Of a stretch of 35,872 nucleotides of DNA, positions 1 to 35,872 are shown one piece after another. Both the position numbers and the translations under genes were made by a program. Positions within the stretch are counted from its first letter, which is position 1, and each line of letters starts with the position of its first letter. The notes beneath the pieces are model-generated. The model ran no database searches. It was not told where the DNA came from and saw only the letters and a list, made by a program, of their open reading frames with translations. The stretch is from a virus. The stretch spans positions 1-35,872 of IMG/VR virus record IMGVR_UViG_3300042508_000497; one strand, written 5' to 3'.

Positions 1-127
1 TGAACCACTTTCTAAAACTTGCCATCTCTGGCTCTGCTTCTCCGCCGTGCTGATTGTAGGCGCTGATCGTCAGAGTCATCGGTGAGGCCCAGTTTGCCGC
101 CCACTCAAACCAGCGCAGGCAGTCTGG
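1..127. repeat. Terminal direct repeat, left copy (contig overlap)
   Basis: These 127 bases are identical to 35746-35872. An exact overlap of 127 nt is the typical sign of a circular genome assembled with a 127-mer graph, although a physically terminally redundant linear molecule cannot be excluded. A glycosyltransferase reading frame continues without a break through the join, which supports the closure. Unit genome length is 35,745 bp. Confidence 0.95.
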
Positions 128-3513: not shown

Positions 3514-4398
3514 TTATCGTGCGAGCGTGTTTAGTTTTTGATAAATCGCGGCCGCACGACCGGGATTTTTTTCCTCGTTGAATTGCTTCAGCAACTCAGC
3601 GCGGGAAAGCACTGGGGCCACTACTTCAAGGGGTTTAGTTCCCTTGCTGGCTTCTAAATCAATTTTGAGACGGGCAAGCTCGTTGTTTAAGGCAACGATC
3701 TTGGGGTTCTCGGAAAGTTCGGCAGCAACTTCGGCCACGACTTCTGGGGCGGCTTCGGTTACAGCGGGCTCAGCGGCTACGGGAGCTTCCTCGACCACGG
3801 CTTCAAACTTGGCGGCAAATTTGCCGACGAGTTCGTCGATGCGGGCGGAGAGAGCGGCGATGGCCAGCTCGGCATTAAACGCCGGGGCCGCCGGTGCTGC
3901 GGGCGCGGTTTCGATAACCGGCGCTGATTCCTTTACGGTTGTATCCATATTAAGCGTTTTGAGTGTGTCAACTCGTGCCGAGTAAACGCCTGTCGGGTTG
4001 GCCGCTGGAGTGGTCACGAGGTCGACCGAGTAAAGAGTGTTAACGTCGGCCAGCTGCGTGCCATCCTCAGCCACACGCGGAACGCCAGAGAAGCTGATCG
4101 AAAAACCGATCTGGCCCGGCAGGGTGCTTAGTAGCTCGCTAAAATAGGCAAAGCCATCATGGCTTTCCAGCAGGGTCAGATCCGCACGGACGCGGCCGCC
4201 GTCTAAGCTAAAGTTCTCTAGGTATCCGATAATGTTTGAAACGCTAGAGCTGTGATCGGAAAGTACCTTAATTTGCCCCAGCTCATTGCCGGCCCGGACA
4301 ACTTGCTCTAGGGTGTCGGCGTCGATAGTCATGCCGTGGCCTAAAGCGGGGCCAGCGGTGATGACGGAAATTCCCTTAAATAGTTTTATTGAAGCCAT
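3514..4398 (-). CDS. Prohead protease fused to a scaffold-like C-terminus
   Basis: 294 aa. Residues 1-145 match the pattern of the phage prohead serine protease families: a histidine in VLSDHSSS (near 48), a beta-rich core, the serine motif FSISFSG (near 100) and the SVDLVTTPAAN strand that often closes the domain. Residues 155-294 are rich in Ala, Glu and Pro and then form a coiled-coil-like helix, as expected for an internal scaffold. This resembles lambda C/Nu3, where the scaffold is the C-terminal part of the protease. A methionine at about residue 151 (MDTTVKESAP, position 3948) could start a scaffold-only product, but no ribosome binding site is visible there. Its place directly before the capsid gene supports the role. 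Confidence 0.85.
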   Translation of the reverse strand: MASIKLFKGISVITAGPALGHGMTIDADTLEQVVRAGNELGQIKVLSDHSSSVSNIIGYLENFSLDGGRVRADLTLLESHDGFAYFSELLSTLPGQIGFSISFSGVPRVAEDGTQLADVNTLYSVDLVTTPAANPTGVYSARVDTLKTLNMDTTVKESAPVIETAPAAPAAPAFNAELAIAALSARIDELVGKFAAKFEAVVEEAPVAAEPAVTEAAPEVVAEVAAELSENPKIVALNNELARLKIDLEASKGTKPLEVVAPVLSRAELLKQFNEEKNPGRAAAIYQKLNTLAR

Positions 4399-4425
4399 GC
4401 CCGCGCATGGCGTGTCAAATTAGTC

Positions 4426-4659
4426 TTACTCTGCTGGTGGAATAAAGTGGGTGTTAGTTTTATGCAGTTCGGTAAGGATCTGATTTGTACTATTTTCGGT
4501 GCGAACCGTTGAGCTTAAAATCTCTTTAACGTCCTTTTCTATTCGCTCTGCTGCGTTAGATATTTGAAAGACAAACACGGGCAAAAGCAAAAGAAGGACG
4601 CCCAGAACAATAAGAACAATAAGAAGTATAGTCCCGCCAATTACTCCAAAGCCTTCCAT
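4426..4659 (-). CDS. Small membrane-anchored protein with helical tail
   Basis: 77 aa, not recognised. Residues 5-33 form one long hydrophobic segment very rich in Ile, Leu and Val (GGTILLIVLIVLGVLLLLLP). The rest is a charged helix (about 36-70) that could form a coiled coil. The layout resembles DUF948-like proteins by eye only. It sits between portal and protease, an unusual place for a membrane protein; it may be a moron acting on the host membrane rather than a virion part. Its ribosome binding site lies in the loop of the hairpin at 4664-4690. Confidence 0.7.
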   Translation of the reverse strand: MEGFGVIGGTILLIVLIVLGVLLLLLPVFVFQISNAAERIEKDVKEILSSTVRTENSTNQILTELHKTNTHFIPPAE

Positions 4660-6689: not shown

Positions 6690-8429
6690 TCACGCCTTTG
6701 CCTCTGGGGCCATAGCTGCCTCGGCTTGAATTACTTTACCCCATACCGCCAGCCCAGCTAGGTAGGTTTCGCAGTCGTATAAGTGATCCTGCCTACCTTT
6801 GATTCTAATCCACTCATAAAGATCTTTGCCCGTTTTGCGGTTTATTCGATGAGCCTTGCGATGGCTGGCCATGTGCTCTCGGTACTCCGGGCTAACGTCG
6901 TGCGCCACTTCCCACATCGGCCCCTGCCCTCGGCGTAACCACGCCAGCAAATCCTGACACGACGGAGAGCTTAAGAGGAGCAGGCGGCATCCTGCGTCGG
7001 TCGGTTGGTCGGAGCTGTGCACGCTTTTCATTCGACCGCCCACGCCTTCAATATAGAAAAACTGCCGCTCCTCTCCCTTAATGGCTACCCAGCCGTAACG
7101 TGCTGCAATCCTGTAGGTGTCTTGCGTTTCGTAGCCAGAGTCAATGCAGGTATGGATATTTTTTACGCCAAGCTCTTGCAAGGATTGGGCGATATCCTCA
7201 ATCGTTCGCCGGCGGCCTTCCTCAATCAAACGGCTCGATCCATCCCTGGCAAACGCTCTGACGACAAACCAGAACTCGTCGATCTGCCTATCGATTGCGG
7301 CTAGCTTAATGTGATCGGTTTCCCAGAGCTGCTTCTTGCCAAACGCACCTGGCGGTATGTTTGTTAAATCGTCGTCATCAAATTGATCCTCCCACGGCAT
7401 CGCACTCCATCCGTTCACCCACCCCTGCAACCCGTGTAGATAATGCTTTTCTGTAAGAAACTTTTTTGCGCAATCTGCAAAGGTAATCGTGGGGCTGTAC
7501 CAGCTGGGCAGTCGAAAAGAGCGCCGGCCCGTTTCCGCGCTGTTGTTCGCCGCCACCCACTTGCCCTGCTCGATCGCCTTGCGCCGGTGACTTTCCGTCC
7601 ACTTGGCGTCGCACTTCGGGCAGTAGTAGGCAGCCGTTTCAGAGACTCGCTTCATGTCCCACTTACCGTCCTCGGCTCTTGCCGTTTCGTCCCAGCGTAT
7701 CTGACCGAACTCCATCGCCTGAAACTCGCCGCAGGAATGGCACGGCACGTGGTAAGTTTCTTGGCTGCCCGCCTGATAGTTGATCCAGATGTCGCCGGTG
7801 TTCAACGTCGGCGTGCTCGTCAGCACGTGCTTACGCTGCGGAAACGCCTTAGTGCGCTCTAAGGCTAGCGAGTAAGCGGCTGCGTCTTTTTCGGATGGCG
7901 CGGCAAAAGAATCCAGCTCATCCAAAACGGCTAAGCAAATCGGGCGCGAGGAAAGATTGGCCGGGCTGTTTGATCCCACCAAAGAAAGCGTCATAGTCGC
8001 AAACTGCATCTCGAGGATCTTTAGGTCGTCCATGTCCTGCGGGAATAGTTGCTTTACTGGCCTGCACTTTTCAAATATGGGAGTTAGTCGCGTCTCGCTA
8101 TAAGAGCGGGCTAAGTCTGCGTTAGGCATAACCAGCAGCGCTGGCGCTGGGTCGTTTGCAATTCGGTAGGCTAACCACACTGCCAGCGTAAGCGTCTTGC
8201 CTGTTTGCGATCCCCAGCAAAGGGTGACGGTGTGAACGCCCGGATCGGCCAGCGCTTCCAGTACGCCCCGCACGTAAGGCGTCCACGTCGTGCTGTAAAG
8301 TCCGGGGCGAGCAGTCAGCCGGCTATCGAGCTGGATGTTGCGCTCTGCCCACTGAATCACCCCTGGCGGCTTCTCGTAGTGCCACCGCTGTCGTGCTCGG
8401 CGTCGCAGCTCGGTCTGCGCCTTTGTCAC
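6690..8429 (-). CDS. Terminase large subunit, GpA family
   Basis: 579 aa. ATPase: Walker A WGSQTGKT (residues 72-79), Walker B LAVLDELD (166-173). Two CxxC pairs (CHSC at 230-233, CPKC at 270-273) form the zinc-ribbon-like insert of the lambda gpA family. The nuclease domain follows, with acidic residues in KLAAIDRQ (about D380), TCIDSGYE (about D430) and LYDCETY near the C-terminus. The enzyme cuts concatemeric DNA and pumps it into the prohead. The GTG start at 8429 overlaps the small terminase stop as GTGA. Phages with GpA-type terminase often package from a cos site, which bears on the repeat array upstream of the small terminase gene. Confidence 0.96.
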   Translation of the reverse strand: MTKAQTELRRRARQRWHYEKPPGVIQWAERNIQLDSRLTARPGLYSTTWTPYVRGVLEALADPGVHTVTLCWGSQTGKTLTLAVWLAYRIANDPAPALLVMPNADLARSYSETRLTPIFEKCRPVKQLFPQDMDDLKILEMQFATMTLSLVGSNSPANLSSRPICLAVLDELDSFAAPSEKDAAAYSLALERTKAFPQRKHVLTSTPTLNTGDIWINYQAGSQETYHVPCHSCGEFQAMEFGQIRWDETARAEDGKWDMKRVSETAAYYCPKCDAKWTESHRRKAIEQGKWVAANNSAETGRRSFRLPSWYSPTITFADCAKKFLTEKHYLHGLQGWVNGWSAMPWEDQFDDDDLTNIPPGAFGKKQLWETDHIKLAAIDRQIDEFWFVVRAFARDGSSRLIEEGRRRTIEDIAQSLQELGVKNIHTCIDSGYETQDTYRIAARYGWVAIKGEERQFFYIEGVGGRMKSVHSSDQPTDAGCRLLLLSSPSCQDLLAWLRRGQGPMWEVAHDVSPEYREHMASHRKAHRINRKTGKDLYEWIRIKGRQDHLYDCETYLAGLAVWGKVIQAEAAMAPEAKA

Positions 8430-8914
8430 AGCGCGGCCTCGACCTGCCGCATAATTTGGCCCACCTCGTTCTCGACGTCTGCCTCAACCTCTGCCGCTGG
8501 CTTGTTAGCGCAGATGGGGGCAAGCCGCTTGGCCATTCCTTTAAGTAGCGGGATGAGTGCGTTATCCCTTGCGGCCAGTACCTTGTCGGCCTCATCCACC
8601 GGCACCATCGTGCCCTCTGCTTGATCGATGTCCGGCCTGTCGCCCTTCATTCTGCGCAACGCCTCGACCAGCTTTGTGTAGTTACTAATCAGCTCAGAGC
8701 GGTCGGCCCGTGTGTCGTCCTTTGCCGACTCACCTAGGCTCGCTGCCAGATCCTCAAGCCTCTGGATCTCCACGTCCAGCCCGCCACCTTTTGCCCTTAT
8801 CAGCGGAGCGGTCGTCGCAGGCTTGGCGGCCGCTAGGTCGCGGTACGTCTGAGCACGCGACTTGCCCGTCGCCTTCATGGCCGCTCGCACTCGGTGGTTA
8901 GGATCTCTGCCCAT
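8426..8914 (-). CDS. Terminase small subunit (putative)
   Basis: 162 aa. It lies directly upstream of the large terminase with a GTGA overlap. Residues 1-30 (MGRDPNHRVRAAMKATGKSR) suit a winged-helix DNA-binding head; residues 50-110 are helical and charged, as expected for an oligomerisation part; the C-terminus is acidic. The small subunit would recognise the packaging site. The ATG at 8914 has no obvious Shine-Dalgarno sequence. The 196-bp gap upstream holds the 24-bp spaced repeats, the likeliest binding target. Assignment rests on context more than on sequence signature. Confidence 0.75.
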   Translation of the reverse strand: MGRDPNHRVRAAMKATGKSRAQTYRDLAAAKPATTAPLIRAKGGGLDVEIQRLEDLAASLGESAKDDTRADRSELISNYTKLVEALRRMKGDRPDIDQAEGTMVPVDEADKVLAARDNALIPLLKGMAKRLAPICANKPAAEVEADVENEVGQIMRQVEAAL

Positions 8915-8978
8915 GATACACTAATTGTTAGAGGCTATACTTAAGTAATTTACGGCAGTCGTTTCCACCGCGATGTTT
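8915..8978. promoter_or_regulatory. AT-rich spacer with perfect palindrome before the small terminase gene
   Basis: The gap between the small terminase ATG and the repeat array is AT-rich from about 8917 to 8951 and contains the perfect 10-bp palindrome TACTTAAGTA (8938-8947). No clear -35/-10 pair was found. It could be an unwinding element beside iterons, part of a cos site, or the promoter region of the head genes. Confidence 0.4.
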
Positions 8979-9119
8979 CTACTCAAGGAGACTCCTTGTG
9001 TCGGAGAAAAAATCCTACTCAAGAGATTTTGACGTGTCCTACTCAAGAGAAAAACCTGTGCCCTACTCAAGAGAATCTGCGCCTCTCTACTCAAGGGATT
9101 TTGTGTCTGCCTACTCAAG
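8979..9119. repeat. Iteron-like array: six CTACTCAAG cores, five spaced exactly 24 bp
   Basis: CTACTCAAG occurs at 8979, 9015, 9039, 9063, 9087 and 9111. The last five are spaced exactly 24 bp; the first is 36 bp from the second. Four copies extend to CTACTCAAGAG, and each core holds the small dyad CTC-AA-GAG or a variant. The 12-nt spacers differ but share T-rich and GTGTC-like pieces. The first copy runs into the near-perfect palindrome CAAGGAG-A-CTCCTTG (8984-8998). The sixth copy supplies the TAG stop of the gene at 9111-9575. In lambda the small terminase binds repeated R sites (cosB) at this position, so cosB or another packaging site is the leading idea; a replication origin is the alternative. 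Confidence 0.9.
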
Positions 9120-9575
9120 AGCGGCCTCCTTAATCTCTCTGTACTTTATAGCGATTGGCTCAGCGTATCGCATGAACTCTTGCTTAGTTTCTTTTGACCA
9201 GGCTTGATGTTTGCTTCTGTTGGCGAACCATTGGCTAACCTTGATCAGCGGCCACATGAACGGCTTGCGCTCACTTGGTACGCTAGTCGTTATGGGGTCT
9301 GGCAGCATCTCTGCCCAGAGCATGACCTGTCTAACTACACTAGGCTCGCCTGTGCTTAGCTTGTGTTGGTGTGCAGCGACTCTTTCTAGTCGCTTGCCTT
9401 GTTCGTCAGTAAGGCCAGCTGTATCTAATAGCTTGGCTATGTCTTGGCCGGATGCTCTGGCCTCTGCGATAATAACGCCTGCCTTAGCTGCTAGTCCTAT
9501 GACTTCGCCTACCGCTTCTAAGGTGTGCTGACGCTTGTTAGCTAACTCTTTGACTACTTGTTTTAATGTTTGCAT
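9111..9575 (-). CDS. Helical protein of unknown function
   Basis: 154 aa, not recognised. It is mostly helical and charged with no signal peptide or membrane segment. Notable stretches are LEAVGEVIGLAAKAG (residues 19-33), LTDEQGKRLERVAAHQHKL (55-73) and a Trp-rich C-terminal half (FMWPLIKVSQWFAN). The ATG at 9575 overlaps the stop of the HTH gene by 13 nt, so both are in one operon. The TAG stop lies inside the sixth copy of the repeat array. Position between replication and packaging genes suggests a DNA-metabolism or packaging-linked role; this is inference only. Confidence 0.7.
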   Translation of the reverse strand: MQTLKQVVKELANKRQHTLEAVGEVIGLAAKAGVIIAEARASGQDIAKLLDTAGLTDEQGKRLERVAAHQHKLSTGEPSVVRQVMLWAEMLPDPITTSVPSERKPFMWPLIKVSQWFANRSKHQAWSKETKQEFMRYAEPIAIKYREIKEAALE

Positions 9576-10042
9576 TTCATACCTTTCATTAGTGCGGCAC
9601 TGTTAAATTTAGGCGTTTCACGACGCCGCTTGTCGTGATGCTTCCTTGCTCGTAAGTCGTATGCCTCACGGGCCTTTTGGCTTTTCTGTGATCGCACTGG
9701 TAAGCCCAGCCGATCGGTAACTCCCATAACTCTCTTGCTGAACGCCTGCTTAGTTATTTTATGCTGCTTGGCTAGCTGCGTCATAGATGCAGTCGACCTG
9801 TTTAGCACCACTGAGAGAACGCTTTGCTCTAACGTGTCGGTCATGTTTTGTACTGCAGGATGCTCAGGCGCTTTTGTTATAAGGTAGTTAAAGACCTGTG
9901 CCGTTAGGGCTACGGACGAAGTGGTGACAGTAATCCGCAACTCAGAACACGCTTCCCAGATTAGATCTACTATGCCGTCGATCCGCTTGCTCACATGGGT
10001 AGTACCGCATGGCAGCCGTTCAATTACTTCTTGGTCTATCAT
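9563..10042 (-). CDS. HTH DNA-binding protein
   Basis: 159 aa. A helix-turn-helix is visible at about residues 85-115 (MTQLAKQHKITKQAFSKRV), of the sigma-70 region 4/LuxR-like kind where a short helix, a turn and a recognition helix follow each other. The C-terminus is strongly basic (RARKHHDKRRRE), consistent with DNA contact. The gene follows a 120-bp gap full of repeats and a hairpin, the obvious candidate target. It could be a regulator of late or packaging genes, or an origin-binding protein acting with the primase-helicase upstream. Confidence 0.7.
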   Translation of the reverse strand: MIDQEVIERLPCGTTHVSKRIDGIVDLIWEACSELRITVTTSSVALTAQVFNYLITKAPEHPAVQNMTDTLEQSVLSVVLNRSTASMTQLAKQHKITKQAFSKRVMGVTDRLGLPVRSQKSQKAREAYDLRARKHHDKRRRETPKFNSAALMKGMKCKH

Positions 10043-10162
10043 AATTCACCCCCAAGTTGTTTAATCGCCCCCAACCACCACCCCCAAGATCCCCTTAAGA
10101 GGGGGGATCTTGATGGTAGTGGTATCAAGTTAATTTGGGTGACCACCAAGTTAATTTGGGGG
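10043..10162. promoter_or_regulatory. Repeat- and hairpin-rich intergenic region after the primase-helicase
   Basis: This 120-bp gap holds no gene. CAAGTTAATTTGGG occurs twice (10126-10139 and 10147-10160, 21 bp apart). CCCCCAA occurs three times (10049, 10068, 10081), and its complement TTGGGGG at 10156-10162. A perfect 10-bp stem, CAAGATCCCC (10085-10094) with 10103-10112, has an 8-nt loop. On minus-strand RNA the single CCCCCAA near the start can pair with any of three TTGGGGG segments later, so alternative folds are possible. Candidate roles are origin iterons, an operator for the HTH protein, or an attenuator. No U-run follows the hairpin. Confidence 0.7.
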
Positions 10163-12127
10163 TTAAAAAGGCTGCTCAATTTGGGCCTCCTTTAATCTGT
10201 ATTTTCCGTCAACTTCACAGATGACTCCGGCTTCCTTAGCGTTAGCGATATATCGGCCTGCAGTATTCTCGGCCTTATCAGTGTGAGATTGTACCCATCT
10301 TACTAATTGAGCCCAAGTGCAAGGCATAACGTTACACTTTGACCAGTTAACTGCATCAGGCTTTGGCCCTGGTCTTTTCTTTTCAGGGGCGTCACCCTCC
10401 ATCCAAGCCAACCCTACTTGCGAATGCTTTAAGTGGACACACGGCTGAACGTTAGACGCTATGAAATCGCTCGCAGTGCGGTTAGGACGCAACCCAGACC
10501 GCTTTCCGCGCTTGGTCACCTCTAGCTTGTAGGTGTACGTACCTTCCTCATCCTGACCGCAAGGCGCCAAGGTTAATACGCTCCGCGCCCAGTTCGTCAG
10601 CTCGCTAGATCCAAATCCGCTGTAGGCTTTATCGTGTCCCTGATAGCCACTGCCGTCCCGCGTCGGCTTAGGCGTGTGGTGCATCAGCATCCATGCAAAC
10701 CCACCGGCCAGCGCAAGGGGGTTAAGCAAATTACGAAGGAATCCGCCGGCCGTCTCTTGGCTGGATAGATCGCCACCGATAAATGCGAGCAAAGGATCTA
10801 CCCAGGCTAAGTGCGGCTTATGCCTTTCAGCCAATCTACGCATCCGATCGACAAACCGTTCGCCCGTAGAGGTGCAGTCACGCACGATCACTATGTTTTC
10901 TTTAACCATTTGCAGCTCCTCTGGCGTTAAATCTAACGCCTTGAGAATACCCTGCAGCGCCTCTGCCACGTCGCCCTCATCGTTCTCGGCCTGCACGATG
11001 AGCGACTTAAGCGGCTTGCCATGTGGCGATATGCCAAACAGCTCACGACCGCACGCCCAAGTGATCGCGGCCTGCAAGCACAGCACGCTCTTACCCAGCC
11101 CGCTACTACCCACCCACAGCGCCGATCCACCACGGCAGATCCACCGCTTGCCTAGCAGCTGCGTTGGATCGCAATCCTCTTTGAAGTTTACTAGATCCTC
11201 CCACTTATACGGCTCAGGCAAATCCCCATACATCGTGCGCTCTTGCCATTCGATGTAAGTCAGCGTTGGTGCTCCACACTCGACCAACTCCTGCTGCTGG
11301 CCAGTAGCGGTGCGCATAGCCCCTGGCAACCGAGACAACCGGCCGGCGTCCTTGTTGGCAGAGTCAGGCTTCGAGTGCTCCAAGTGCTTGTAAATAAAAT
11401 CTACACGCTCGGCAAACTCCTTGGCATTGGCCGCCCTCACGTCCACCCACGCATGCAGGCTCCGGGCACCGCTCTTAATGATCGACGACGTAGGCAATCC
11501 ACTGCGCTTAATAATGGCCCACTGCTCTTGGAGCGTGCTTTCATCAAACTCGATTAGACAGTGGCGAAACTTGGTGATCGATTCGGCTTTGCGGTTCTTA
11601 CCGTTGTTCGCGTTAATCGACACGTATACGCCCACTGCATCGCCTTGCCACGTTGCCAACCCGTCGCCTTTAAACAGCTCCAGCCATTCCTCGCGGGTGC
11701 GAGTCTCGCCCGCACCGTCCGGCCGCTCGCGGTCGCCGTCCTTAATTGATCGGCAGATATTGATACTATCACCCACGTCGAAACAGGTTGTTAGAAACTT
11801 GTCGACCGGCCCGCTCTCCACGCTGATCGGCATGGGTGGCACAGGCAGATCCTCACGAACGATCGCCCCGTTTTGATAGGCATACTTGGCTTTAGGCCGC
11901 CACGCCTCCCTAGCTGGCTTGCTGTAAGCGGATTTTACGGCCGCCACGCATTCATTCTGCGTTAGCCCATTCTTAAAGCCCCAGATCTCGGCCTCTGACT
12001 CCGCATCAAACTGCGACAAGCCTTGGTCACGGAATTGCAGCGCCATACGGAATAGCTGATTGTTGCGCTCACCTTCCGGCGCCCCGTTGTGGTAAACGGC
12101 CTCGGTGGCTGGGGGCAGTGCAATCAT
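10163..12127 (-). CDS. Primase-helicase (AEP-like primase domain plus RecA-like helicase)
   Basis: 654 aa. Residues 20-70 resemble a PriCT-type helical domain. Residues 185-290 look like an archaeo-eukaryotic primase core: HCLIEFDE (acidic, about 189-196), SGARSLHAW with the S-x-H motif (about 219-227) and GRLSRLPGAMR (262-272). Residues 330-550 form a RecA-like ATPase of the RepA/AAA_25 kind, with Walker A GSSGLGKS (340-347), Walker B HLAWVDP (about 439-445) and MHHTPKP (482-488). The C-terminus (about 600-650) resembles a winged helix. It should unwind DNA and make primers at the phage origin. ATG at 12127 overlaps the preceding stop as ATGA. A repeat-rich gap follows. Confidence 0.88.
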   Translation of the reverse strand: MIALPPATEAVYHNGAPEGERNNQLFRMALQFRDQGLSQFDAESEAEIWGFKNGLTQNECVAAVKSAYSKPAREAWRPKAKYAYQNGAIVREDLPVPPMPISVESGPVDKFLTTCFDVGDSINICRSIKDGDRERPDGAGETRTREEWLELFKGDGLATWQGDAVGVYVSINANNGKNRKAESITKFRHCLIEFDESTLQEQWAIIKRSGLPTSSIIKSGARSLHAWVDVRAANAKEFAERVDFIYKHLEHSKPDSANKDAGRLSRLPGAMRTATGQQQELVECGAPTLTYIEWQERTMYGDLPEPYKWEDLVNFKEDCDPTQLLGKRWICRGGSALWVGSSGLGKSVLCLQAAITWACGRELFGISPHGKPLKSLIVQAENDEGDVAEALQGILKALDLTPEELQMVKENIVIVRDCTSTGERFVDRMRRLAERHKPHLAWVDPLLAFIGGDLSSQETAGGFLRNLLNPLALAGGFAWMLMHHTPKPTRDGSGYQGHDKAYSGFGSSELTNWARSVLTLAPCGQDEEGTYTYKLEVTKRGKRSGLRPNRTASDFIASNVQPCVHLKHSQVGLAWMEGDAPEKKRPGPKPDAVNWSKCNVMPCTWAQLVRWVQSHTDKAENTAGRYIANAKEAGVICEVDGKYRLKEAQIEQPF

Positions 12128-14350: not shown

Positions 14351-14445
14351 CAGTTCCACCTTCCGATTGCGTGCATCAGTTGCAGGCCCAGCGCGACGGC
14401 TACCAGCGGCAGCATTATTTGAATTACGATTGTTAGGATTTCCAT
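14350..14445 (-). CDS. 31-aa membrane micro-protein
   Basis: ATG at 14445, stop TGA at 14350-14352 overlapping the exonuclease ATG. The peptide is MEILTIVIQIMLPLVAVALG followed by a short tail, so almost all of it is one membrane helix. Not recognised. Support is the overlap and the fit of the frame in an otherwise empty gap; it could still be a leader peptide for the exonuclease. Confidence 0.5.
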   Translation of the reverse strand: MEILTIVIQIMLPLVAVALGLQLMHAIGRWN

Positions 14446-14461
14446 AAAATCTTTCTGGCCA

Positions 14462-14480
14462 GGGTGGGAATTGCCCACCC
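14462..14480 (-). terminator. GC-rich hairpin after the ssDNA-binding-like gene
   Basis: GGGTGGG (14462-14468) pairs with 14474-14480 across a 5-nt loop; outer TGGC/GCCA pairs extend it past a small internal loop. It lies 11 nt after the stop at 14492 and before the next start at 14445. The following minus-strand bases (AGAAAGATTTT) are only moderately T-rich, so attenuation is more likely than full termination. Confidence 0.5.
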
Positions 14481-14491
14481 CAGCCAAATGG

Positions 14492-23217: not shown

Positions 23218-23549
23218 GGTATTGTAATCCTTGGGGATAGTGTCACCACGCCTTCTAGCAATCGGGTGGCGATGCCAGCGCTAGTGACTTGGACTAGGTC
23301 ATACTTCGCCCCGCTGGTAGGCACGAGCAAGCTGGCGGCCGAGGTGACGGTGAGGCGCACTTGACCCCCGGCGGCTGATACCACGCTGGTCGCAATCTGC
23401 GTAACTACCGTGCCCCCTGGCATCTGGCGGATCTGGGCGGAGAACGTGCGGCTAGTCAGATCTATGGCCCCCTGGGTGGCGGTGGTAAGGAACAAATCTC
23501 GCGTCCAGTCCGTCCCCTGCTCAATCGTGATGTCGTAGGAGGCGGCCAT
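23214..23549 (-). CDS. Small tail protein, BppU N-terminal-like
   Basis: 111 aa. Layout: IEQGTDWTRDLFLTTATQG, DLTSRTFSAQIRQ, then two further strands and YDLVQVT near the end. This is the order of the short baseplate/fibre attachment domain of BppU type. Residues in the C-terminal part of the NHL protein encoded next follow a similar plan (TIRQGDAHDLAVFF, LCIREK), so the two may be related attachment domains. ATG at 23549 overlaps the stop of the NHL gene (TAATG). Confidence 0.7.
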   Translation of the reverse strand: MAASYDITIEQGTDWTRDLFLTTATQGAIDLTSRTFSAQIRQMPGGTVVTQIATSVVSAAGGQVRLTVTSAASLLVPTSGAKYDLVQVTSAGIATRLLEGVVTLSPRITIP

Positions 23550-25846
23550 TATACGTCCGATATTTCCCGTTCAATTTCTGGAACGATATTCACGGTGAAT
23601 GGTTTGGAGCTGTAGACCTTGCCTCCGTAGATCCACTCGACTTCGCCTATGGCTGGGATAGCGTCAGAGTTATCGGCTACGCCATTAAACGCGACAAAGC
23701 GTTGGAGTGAATCGTTATCAGCGGTAAAGGTAATTTGATAGTAGGGATCGAACCCGCCAAAGTCCGCAGGGGTAAAGGCGGTGGTTTCCAGAATAACGGG
23801 ACGCCGATTTGTTTTTTCGCGAATGCAAAGTTTTAGGGCGGAAGGAGCCATGAGGATGGCGGCCCCGGCTGGATCGGTGAAGAAAACGGCGAGGTCGTGG
23901 GCGTCGCCCTGGCGAATGGTTAGAACGGCGCCATTCCCCTTTGCGCTTGTGACGGCACGGGTACGGGCATCGATCTGTAAATCGGTCAGCTCCCAGCGCA
24001 GATCTAGCCAAGCAAACTGCTTTTCCACGATGACGAGTGATTGCGTGACGGTAGAGGCAGCAGAGTAAGCGGTAGATCCCGCCTGTGCTGCCACGATGTT
24101 GGTCACGCCAGGTGTTACGGGTGTGCAGATATTGCCCACGATCGTAGCCACGTTCGTCACTGTTGATGTAAAAGTAACGGGCAATCCAGAGGATGCGGTA
24201 GCAACAAGAGCAAAAGATCCGTTTGATCGGGCGTTGGCTTGAGCGACGCTGGTAGCGTCAGCAAAAGATAGGCTGGTGCTGGTGGCGATAAGCGAGGCGG
24301 CGGAGTACACGTCTTTTAATGACGCAACCCGGCGAGGAGAAAGAGAGGCAAAGGCAATCGTCTGAGCGATGGGCGCAGTAGTAGCGGTGAGCACTTGGGT
24401 AACGGTAGCGGCCGCCAGGTAGTTAACGTCGCCTGCTTGGGTGGCCGAGATGGTGGTAGTGCCAGCGCCGATAGGGGAAATTGAAAAGCCAGACACTGTG
24501 GCGACCGCGGTGTTGCTAGAGGAAAGGGCGACGGTGAGATTTGCAGTGGAGGTAGGCGCTACGACAAAAGCGCCCGAGCCAACAAACTTGCTGGGGATAG
24601 AGGCAAAGGTGATCGTTTGGGCGGCTTTAGAAATGGTGACTACCCCGCTAGTTGTACCGTAATAGAAATTATCCACGACGCTGGCGGTGACTACATAAGA
24701 GCCAGCGGTGACGGGCGCTGAGAGGCTGGCGGCCGTGCCTGTGTAAGTTAGCTCTAGGGCTAAGCCAGACGGGGAGACAGTGGTGGTGGGGGCCTGAGGA
24801 GATCCAGTATAGGTTTTAGATAGGTCAGAAAGAGTGACCGTCGCAGGTGCAGAGGCAACAGTATTGCGGATGATGTGGTTACCAGAATCCGCCACAAAAA
24901 CATTTCCTGCCGTATCTAAGGCCACGCCGGCTGGGTTTGAAAACCTAGCGGCAGAACCAAGACCGTTATTGGAGCCAGTGTTTCCTGCTAGTCCAGCCTC
25001 TGTAGTTACTAACCCTGCACTAGTTACCTTGCGAATAGTTAAGTTACCGGTGTCTGTCACAAAAACATTTCCTGCGGTATCGACGGCCACGTCACGAGGA
25101 AAAACAAACCTAGCGGCGGAGCCAGTAGCGTCGGTTGAGCCAAAAGAACCTGCGCTTCCAGCTAGGGTAGTTACTACGCCAGCGCTGGTTACTTTGCGGA
25201 TTGTGTGGTTGCCATTATCCGCCACAAAAATATTTCCTGCGGTATCGACGGCAACGCCGATAGGTTGTTTAAACCTAGCGGCGGAGCCAGTGGCGTCGGT
25301 AGAGCCAGAACTGCCAGCTGTTCCTGCTAGGGTAGTTACTACGCCAGCGCTAGTTACTTTGCGGATAAGATGATTAGTATAATCGCCCACAAAAACATTT
25401 CCTGCCGTATCTACAGTAACTCCCCAAGGATTTTTAAACCTAGCGGCTGACCCAGTAGCGTCGGTTGAGCCAAAAGAACCTGCGCTTCCAGCTAGTGTAG
25501 TTACAACTCCTGCGCTGGTTACTTTGCGGATTGTGTGGTTACTGAAATCCGCCACAAAAACATTTCCTGCGGTATCGACGGCCACGCCGACAGGTTGTTT
25601 AAACCTAGCGGCGGAGCCAGTGGCGTCGGTAGAGCCAGAACTGCCAGCTGTTCCTGCTAGTGTCGTCACCACTCCTGCACTAGTTACTTTGCGGATAGTG
25701 TGGTTGTTAGTATCCGCCACAAAAACATTACCTGCGGTATCAACGGATACGCCGAAAGGATTATTAAACCTAGCGGCTGAGCCAGTAGCGTCTGTACTGC
25801 CGCTAGATCCTGCGACGCCAGCTAATGTTCCAAAATATAAGCTCAC
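23549..25846 (-). CDS. NHL-propeller/Ig-like tail adhesin
   Basis: 765 aa from GTG at 25846 (GTGA). Residues 1-335 hold six NHL repeats of 55 aa (consensus FxxPxGVxVDTAGNVFVAD, then HTIRKVTSAGVVTT), enough for a six-bladed beta propeller. Residues 337-410 fit an MBG domain (LSKTYTGSPQAPTTTVSPSG). Next come two bacterial Ig-like repeats (QTITFASIPSKF; QTIAFASLSPRR). The C-terminal 125 residues resemble a BppU-type baseplate attachment domain. NHL propellers bind proteins, sugars or nucleic acids in other systems; in a phage tail the likely job is receptor binding. The 165-bp repeats may let blade number change. Confidence 0.85.
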   Translation of the reverse strand: MSLYFGTLAGVAGSSGSTDATGSAARFNNPFGVSVDTAGNVFVADTNNHTIRKVTSAGVVTTLAGTAGSSGSTDATGSAARFKQPVGVAVDTAGNVFVADFSNHTIRKVTSAGVVTTLAGSAGSFGSTDATGSAARFKNPWGVTVDTAGNVFVGDYTNHLIRKVTSAGVVTTLAGTAGSSGSTDATGSAARFKQPIGVAVDTAGNIFVADNGNHTIRKVTSAGVVTTLAGSAGSFGSTDATGSAARFVFPRDVAVDTAGNVFVTDTGNLTIRKVTSAGLVTTEAGLAGNTGSNNGLGSAARFSNPAGVALDTAGNVFVADSGNHIIRNTVASAPATVTLSDLSKTYTGSPQAPTTTVSPSGLALELTYTGTAASLSAPVTAGSYVVTASVVDNFYYGTTSGVVTISKAAQTITFASIPSKFVGSGAFVVAPTSTANLTVALSSSNTAVATVSGFSISPIGAGTTTISATQAGDVNYLAAATVTQVLTATTAPIAQTIAFASLSPRRVASLKDVYSAASLIATSTSLSFADATSVAQANARSNGSFALVATASSGLPVTFTSTVTNVATIVGNICTPVTPGVTNIVAAQAGSTAYSAASTVTQSLVIVEKQFAWLDLRWELTDLQIDARTRAVTSAKGNGAVLTIRQGDAHDLAVFFTDPAGAAILMAPSALKLCIREKTNRRPVILETTAFTPADFGGFDPYYQITFTADNDSLQRFVAFNGVADNSDAIPAIGEVEWIYGGKVYSSKPFTVNIVPEIEREISDV
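24850..25846. repeat. Six tandem 165-bp repeats encoding NHL blades
   Basis: The word AAACCTAGCG or a close variant recurs at 24941, 25106, 25271, 25436, 25601 and 25766, exactly 165 bp apart. The units are highly similar, with differences grouped at the blade-specific residues. The outermost unit (24850-25000) is the most diverged. Such similar tandem units can recombine, so blade copy number could vary between phages. Confidence 0.9.
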
Positions 25847-35498: not shown

Positions 35499-35872
35499 CG
35501 TGTTCTCTTTTCTTGTGCTGTGGCCACGCGGGTGGCGTGATGATTTTCTTGGTGAAATTCTGCGCTCGGACAAAAAGCGCCCCGCGTTGCCCCTATGTTT
35601 TGGATGCGACTAACTCGCGGATATAGTTCCCCCATGGCCAGCTCGGATCGAATGCGCTGGATGCCTCCGTCCCAAAAAGAGTTATCCCACCTAGGCGCCA
35701 AATACTTTTCCCAATGGCTACGCCAAGTGGCCCAGCCCCACGGGCTGAACCACTTTCTAAAACTTGCCATCTCTGGCTCTGCTTCTCCGCCGTGCTGATT
35801 GTAGGCGCTGATCGTCAGAGTCATCGGTGAGGCCCAGTTTGCCGCCCACTCAAACCAGCGCAGGCAGTCTGG
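35483..35872 (-). CDS. Glycosyltransferase, C-terminal part (starts at 412 on the closed genome)
   Basis: This is the continuation of the gene that begins at 412; 35746-35872 repeats 1-127. Stop TAG is at 35483-35485. The segment contains the WGWATW and EKYLAPRWD region, then ELYPRVSRIQNIGATRG and SAEFHQENH near the end, which match the C-terminal part of a family of phage and bacterial glycosyltransferases. The methyltransferase starts 16 nt inside its end. See the entry at 1-412 for the catalytic half. Confidence 0.85.
   Translation of the reverse strand, partial: PDCLRWFEWAANWASPMTLTISAYNQHGGEAEPEMASFRKWFSPWGWATWRSHWEKYLAPRWDNSFWDGGIQRIRSELAMGELYPRVSRIQNIGATRGAFCPSAEFHQENHHATRVATAQEKRTRWIII
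35746..35872. repeat. Terminal direct repeat, right copy
   Basis: Identical to 1-127. It should be removed once when the genome is closed. Confidence 0.95.

Follow-up and report, generated by a model that had tools for sequence, protein, structure and literature searches.

The window analyzed here is the whole 35,872-nucleotide stretch of the virus record IMGVR_UViG_3300042508_000497 (IMG/VR). The two termini of the window (1–127 and 35746–35872) are exact direct repeats of 127 bp, from which the contig is judged to be a circular assembly with a length of ~35,745 bp, a form that fits phages with joined cohesive ends or concatemeric DNA. Nearly all genes of the window lie on the minus strand. 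In coding direction, the locus runs from a primase/helicase-like gene (10163–12127) through two genes, named gY and gX here, to the genes of the small (TerS) and large (TerL) terminase subunits (table 1). The TerS gene, with its start codon at 8914, overlaps the start of the TerL gene by 4 bp. The flanking genes are separated by 196 bp (from 8914 to 9111), as stated in an earlier reading made from the sequence alone, but the accompanying statement that the genes otherwise overlap holds only roughly, given intergenic gaps of ~120–130 bp at 10043–10162 and 14360–14491. That reading also assigned the large terminase to the GpA type, in agreement with the Pfam matches.

Six exact copies of the core CTACTCAAG start at positions 8979, 9015, 9039, 9063, 9087, and 9111, and no further exact copies occur elsewhere in the window. 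Five of the cores follow one another at an exact 24-bp pitch, and a spacing of 36 bp (24 + 12) separates the first core from the second. This arrangement, which had been noticed from the sequence alone, was recovered by an exact match search and compared with shuffled sequences: exact-period runs of 9-mers reach a length of five in the window and at most two in 100 dinucleotide-preserving shuffles. Read on the coding strand, the CTTGAGTAG array (24-bp pitch) is followed by the 36-bp step with its A/T tract, AGGAGTCTCCT, the last core, 10 bp, the cut site cosN GTGGAAACGACT, 11 bp, CTTAAGTAT, and the TerS start. The core at 9111–9119 also provides the stop codon of gX. No RNA family match and no terminator were found at the locus. 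Other contigs with a pair of CTACTCAAG cores lack the cosN of this phage and mostly show no similar arrangement; they were taken as chance or unrelated repeats. A separate, large tandem repeat (165 bp, 5.7 copies) occupies positions 24864–25796 inside the minus-strand gene at 23549–25846.

Table 1. Features at the packaging locus, in window coordinates.
Feature	Position	Strand	Remarks
Large terminase (TerL), GpA family	6690..8429	-	PF05876 4.9e-64, PF20454 7e-16
Small terminase (TerS)	8426..8914	-	Type I HTH-like N-terminal domain; C-terminal domain common to Nu1-like (PHROG 57) relatives
TerS-side TTGAGT-type site, CTTAAGTAT (CTTGAGTG/A in most relatives)	8937..8945	-	11 bp after cosN
cosN GTGGAAACGACT, 12-bp cohesive-end sequence, staggered cut	8957..8968	-	Contig ends of relatives
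cosN-proximal core CTTGAGTAG	8979..8987	-	10 bp from cosN throughout the main array clade
cosQ-like element AGGAGTCTCCT	8986..8996	-	28 bp before cosN
A/T-rich tract within the 36-bp step, between cosN-proximal core and remaining array	8998..9014	-	
Five-core array, 24-bp pitch (9015, 9039, 9063, 9087, 9111)	9015..9119	-	Relatives have 3–6 cores and an invariable final step of 36 bp
gX, conserved gene of unknown function, right virion end	9111..9575	-	Stop codon within the outermost core
gY, HTH-like protein, alternative candidate ligand of the array	9563..10042	-	Recognition-helix type follows the right-flank module

Related loci were retrieved from IMG/VR with the large terminase, gX, and the primase as queries, and the true contig ends of the relatives (143 ends) were mapped onto the window. 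Twelve ends fell exactly at 8957, on contigs that run up through the array, and ten exactly at 8968, on contigs that run down into terS-terL; all other positions received at most two ends each (chance <1e-25). With diverged relatives included, the homologous element coincides with the start of 25 contigs and the end of 26, giving 51 flush ends. Among the array relatives, contigs terminating at cosN stop 22 bp past the last core. One contig (3300022746_000041; 33,246 bp) carries the same 12-mer, GTTGCGACGACT, at both ends, flush with its cosN homolog. Because the contig ends pile up flush at this place and have 12 bp in common, cosN is located at 8957–8968, between the array and the small-terminase gene. 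The sequence-only reading had expected the cut above 9119, inside or near the gene at 9111–9575; the contig ends place it at 8957/8968 instead. Assemblies broken by repeats were considered as a cause of the contig ends and rejected, as about half of the flush-ended phages carry no array and break at the same place. The cohesive-end sequence varies among relatives (GTGGAAACGACT, GTGGCGACGACT, ATGGCAAAGACN, GTGCTTGCAACT, and others) and its position is constant. Only weak dyad symmetry spans cosN (4 of 18 pairs exact), and it was not counted as evidence. A terminal sequence common to both ends is the signature of end-repaired (filled-in) 5' overhangs, as 3' overhangs are removed (PMC5557969); since the 12 bp occur on both contig ends, the cohesive ends are probably 12 nt long with 5' polarity.

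Several features of this site are those of a lambda-type cos. The relatives' contig ends reveal fixed ends with a short complementary sequence at one place, the site adjoins a GpA-family large terminase (PF05876/PF20454), and a Nu1-type TerS, recognizable by the C-terminal domain common to PHROG 57 matches, is encoded beside cosN. The locus is almost certainly the cos, or packaging site, of a siphovirus-like phage of the lambda type with a GpA terminase.

The TerS proteins of the relatives fall into two types, type I with an MGR/MAR... N-terminus and type II with a Nu1-like N-terminus (MTQTELAKEWGVSQPYVAKLVKRG), whereas the C-terminal half is common to both. No family match was obtained for the type I N-terminal domain itself. 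Type II proteins match PHROG 57 (terminase small subunit) and, because the two types share the C-terminal half, the window gene at 8426–8914 is confirmed as TerS. The AlphaFold model of TerS is poor (pLDDT 62), and the placement of a helix-turn-helix at residues 7–16/20–29 is only indicative. The closest TerL relatives among phage records are at most 32% identical, no DNA-level relatives of the window and no relatives of the gX protein were found in these records, and a sequence search of solved structures gave no match. Matches of TerS in the phage records were discarded as tape-measure coincidences.

A single TTGAGT-type site lies between cosN and terS, in place of the several R sites and the bend of lambda cosB. 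Among 83 contigs containing both cosN and TerS, a site of this type ~11 bp past cosN was present in 76/76 with type I TerS and in 0/7 with type II. Because its presence tracks the type of the TerS N-terminus, this site is probably the best candidate for the TerS recognition (R) site, or cosB, although site and TerS gene are only about 20–40 bp apart and linkage alone could yield the co-segregation. The site is altered in two diverged type I relatives (L254 and L255, contigs from the genome collection). In phages with type II TerS (L023, L094, L110, L119, and L069), ~790–1050 bp separate cosN from TerS. The L023 insert is an opposite-strand gene (3602–4300, minus) that looks HNH-endonuclease-like by eye and has no Pfam match; a homing-type gene may thus be located at cos and move along when TerS domains are swapped.

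On the array side of cosN, 49 of the 52 distinct right flanks, array-less ones included, contain the family consensus AGRARWCTYYT at −28, −29, −32, or −33; the consensus was drawn from the same flanks in which it was counted, so that the fixed position is the informative part. The motif GGGTCCT, which we take to be cosQ of lambda, begins at −30 of the lambda right end (NC_001416). By analogy, the AGRARWCTYYT element appears to occupy the place of lambda cosQ, matching it in position and only loosely in sequence. cosQ is needed for the termination of lambda packaging (PMC4669245).

The geometry of the array is constant in 39 related contigs (24-bp steps, a final 36-bp step, then 10 bp to cosN) while the copy number ranges from three to six cores. 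The sequence-only reading had suggested aligning relatives in search of conserved cores with drifting spacers, and this pattern was found: across 48 distinct units, columns 1–8 of the core have an entropy of 0–0.5 bit and spacer columns reach 1.9 bits. In L023 (3470–3560) an exact copy of the cosN-proximal core stands at its usual place in reverse orientation (CTACTCAAG), as though both orientations were functional (compare L251 and L236). The DNA pattern could in principle be a by-product of a repetitive peptide, as 24 and 36 are divisible by three and one frame is open across the array (a 65-aa ORF at 8921–9118). This is extremely improbable, as the cores are invariant at synonymous positions whereas the spacers vary freely, and the ORF gave no family match. 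Furthermore, the frame in which the core supplies the gX stop codon differs among relatives, which points to selection on the DNA and not on the peptide.

A second explanation, that the array is a replication origin with iterons for an initiator, draws on the iteron-like spacing, the A/T tract within the 36-bp step, and the proximity of AT-rich DNA, the primase/helicase-like gene, and an HTH-like gene. We consider an origin improbable: the cosN-proximal core stays 10 bp from the cut and the final step stays at 36 bp while the copy number varies, the core nearest to the cut overlaps the cosQ-like element, and in other relatives the position of the array beside cosN is filled by unrelated short modules. 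In addition, the windowed GC skew follows a smooth course without a turning point at the array, and neither gX nor gY gave an initiator family match. The origin, which the sequence-only reading had kept as its alternative, is thus disfavored by the fixed register of array and cut. In two array-less phages (L035, positions 4095–4622, and L176), a different inserted gene was observed between gX and the cut.

The preferred interpretation in the sequence-only reading was that the array is the cosB-like dock of the terminase. The packaging-site part of this claim stands, as contig ends are flush at cosN; the array as a terminase dock was not established, because near-identical terminases occur without the array and type II TerS proteins occur with it. 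One relative (L004), whose TerL, TerS, and gX are 99–100% identical, has lost the array; the array is missing from many other type I phages and is present with type II TerS in L094, L110, and L023. A GpA terminase, repeats beside cos, and the heptamer CTTGAGT in both the array cores and the TerS-side site would all suit an array that TerS requires as a cosB dock and a cut within or close to the 9111–9575 gene. Yet the cut falls on the other side of the array and the TerS-linked site sits on the TerS side, which makes such a cosB quite unlikely. It is likely, judged from these comparisons, that the array is a functional accessory of cos, a lineage-specific subsite that is not an essential TerS dock.

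Since the CTTGAGT heptamer is common to the array cores and the TerS-side site, TerS is a plausible ligand of the array, with a chance somewhat below even. The variant TTAAGT occurs in 0/72 array cores and in 6/54 TerS-side sites (P = 0.005); because it never appears in array cores, the cores and the TerS-side site may be read by partly different proteins. A ligand outside the terminase would be gY or its neighbor gX, in which case the array would belong to a packaging-accessory or end-protection complex at the right end. The predicted recognition helix of gY differs between array phages and phages with a AAGGAATCTTTT module; it reads KQAFSKRV in every array phage and KQA(V/I)SKK in nearly all module-B phages, whichever the TerS type. 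Array and gY are also parts of a single block right of cosN, and this block recombines as a whole relative to the TerS block (L094, L110, and L023). However, ~1 kb of linkage and shared ancestry explain the correlation equally well, the same helix type occurs without the array in L004, L012, L013, L090, and L035, and gY was modeled with low confidence (pLDDT 62), so that binding by gY or gX appears doubtful. Equally doubtful is a combined extension in which the array is a fourth kind of cos subsite, with cosQ-side sites read by gY rather than TerS, and in which right-hand cos modules are swapped whole, TerS and its site are swapped as left-hand modules, and cosN is the recombination joint.

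A model for the array as cos accessory can be proposed on this basis. The terminase would introduce nicks staggered by 12 bp at 8957–8968, producing virion DNA with 12-nt cohesive ends, a left end with terS-terL, and a right end with primase-gY-gX-array. In lambda, TerS on cosB anchors TerL, and cosQ and cosN serve termination (PMC9026076, PMC4669245). By analogy, TerS would bind the TerS-side site, TerL would nick cosN, and the terS-terL end would be packaged first. The end that arrives last would then carry the array, whose position relative to the cut is fixed, as a set of extra binding sites behind the cosQ-like element. There the array would most likely help to hold or recruit the terminase at the cos reached when a round of packaging ends, and it might slow or hold the motor or hand the terminase over to the next genome. 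It would act by binding TerS through the CTTGAGT heptamer, or by binding a second phage protein.

Public assemblies alone were sufficient to place, to the base, the DNA ends of a large lineage of uncultured phages that has no relative above ~32% terminase identity in the searched phage records, and flush contig ends in metagenome collections offer a general and cheap route to cos sites. The lineage forms a natural cos series in which the TerS domain with its site, the cosN sequence, and the right-hand module vary nearly independently, so that the division of labor among subsites becomes testable. This pattern suggests that cosN is a joint at which packaging specificity is reshuffled. Our search, which covered part of the literature, found no amplified cosQ-side array that is exchanged separately from the TerS site.

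Cos sites of the lambda type are well known. In lambda, 21, and N15 (cosQ-cosN-cosB), cosN likewise lies just upstream of terS-terL and the large terminase is of the GpA family. The site described here resembles them in its 12-nt cohesive ends (probably 5', as judged from sequence), in the TerS-linked site on the TerS side, and in the cosQ-like element ~29 bp away on the other side. The lambda-type TerS is modular and its DNA-binding domain can be swapped (PMC9026076, PMC4669245), a property that this lineage has in common with lambda-type phages. The sequences of cosN and its flanks are unrelated to those of lambda. In lambda, the array R3-IHF-R2-R1 occupies the TerS side and R3 covers bp 50–65 (PMC9026076), whereas here one short site lies on the TerS side at bp 24–32 and the multi-copy array is found across cosN, on the cosQ side, where the A/T tract has a place comparable to that of the bend separating lambda R3 from R2. 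The "simple cosB" of N15 contains a single R3 rather than three recognition sites (PMC4669245) and is similar in having one TerS-side recognition site, but the site is closer to cosN here and N15, by its description, has no comparable cosQ-side array. HK97 cos also has a short TerS site near the cut, at positions 15–29 (PMC10370121), a location similar to bp 24–32 of this cos; it differs by its 10-nt 3' overhangs and circular TerS, whereas the 12 bp found here on both contig ends fit 5' overhangs.
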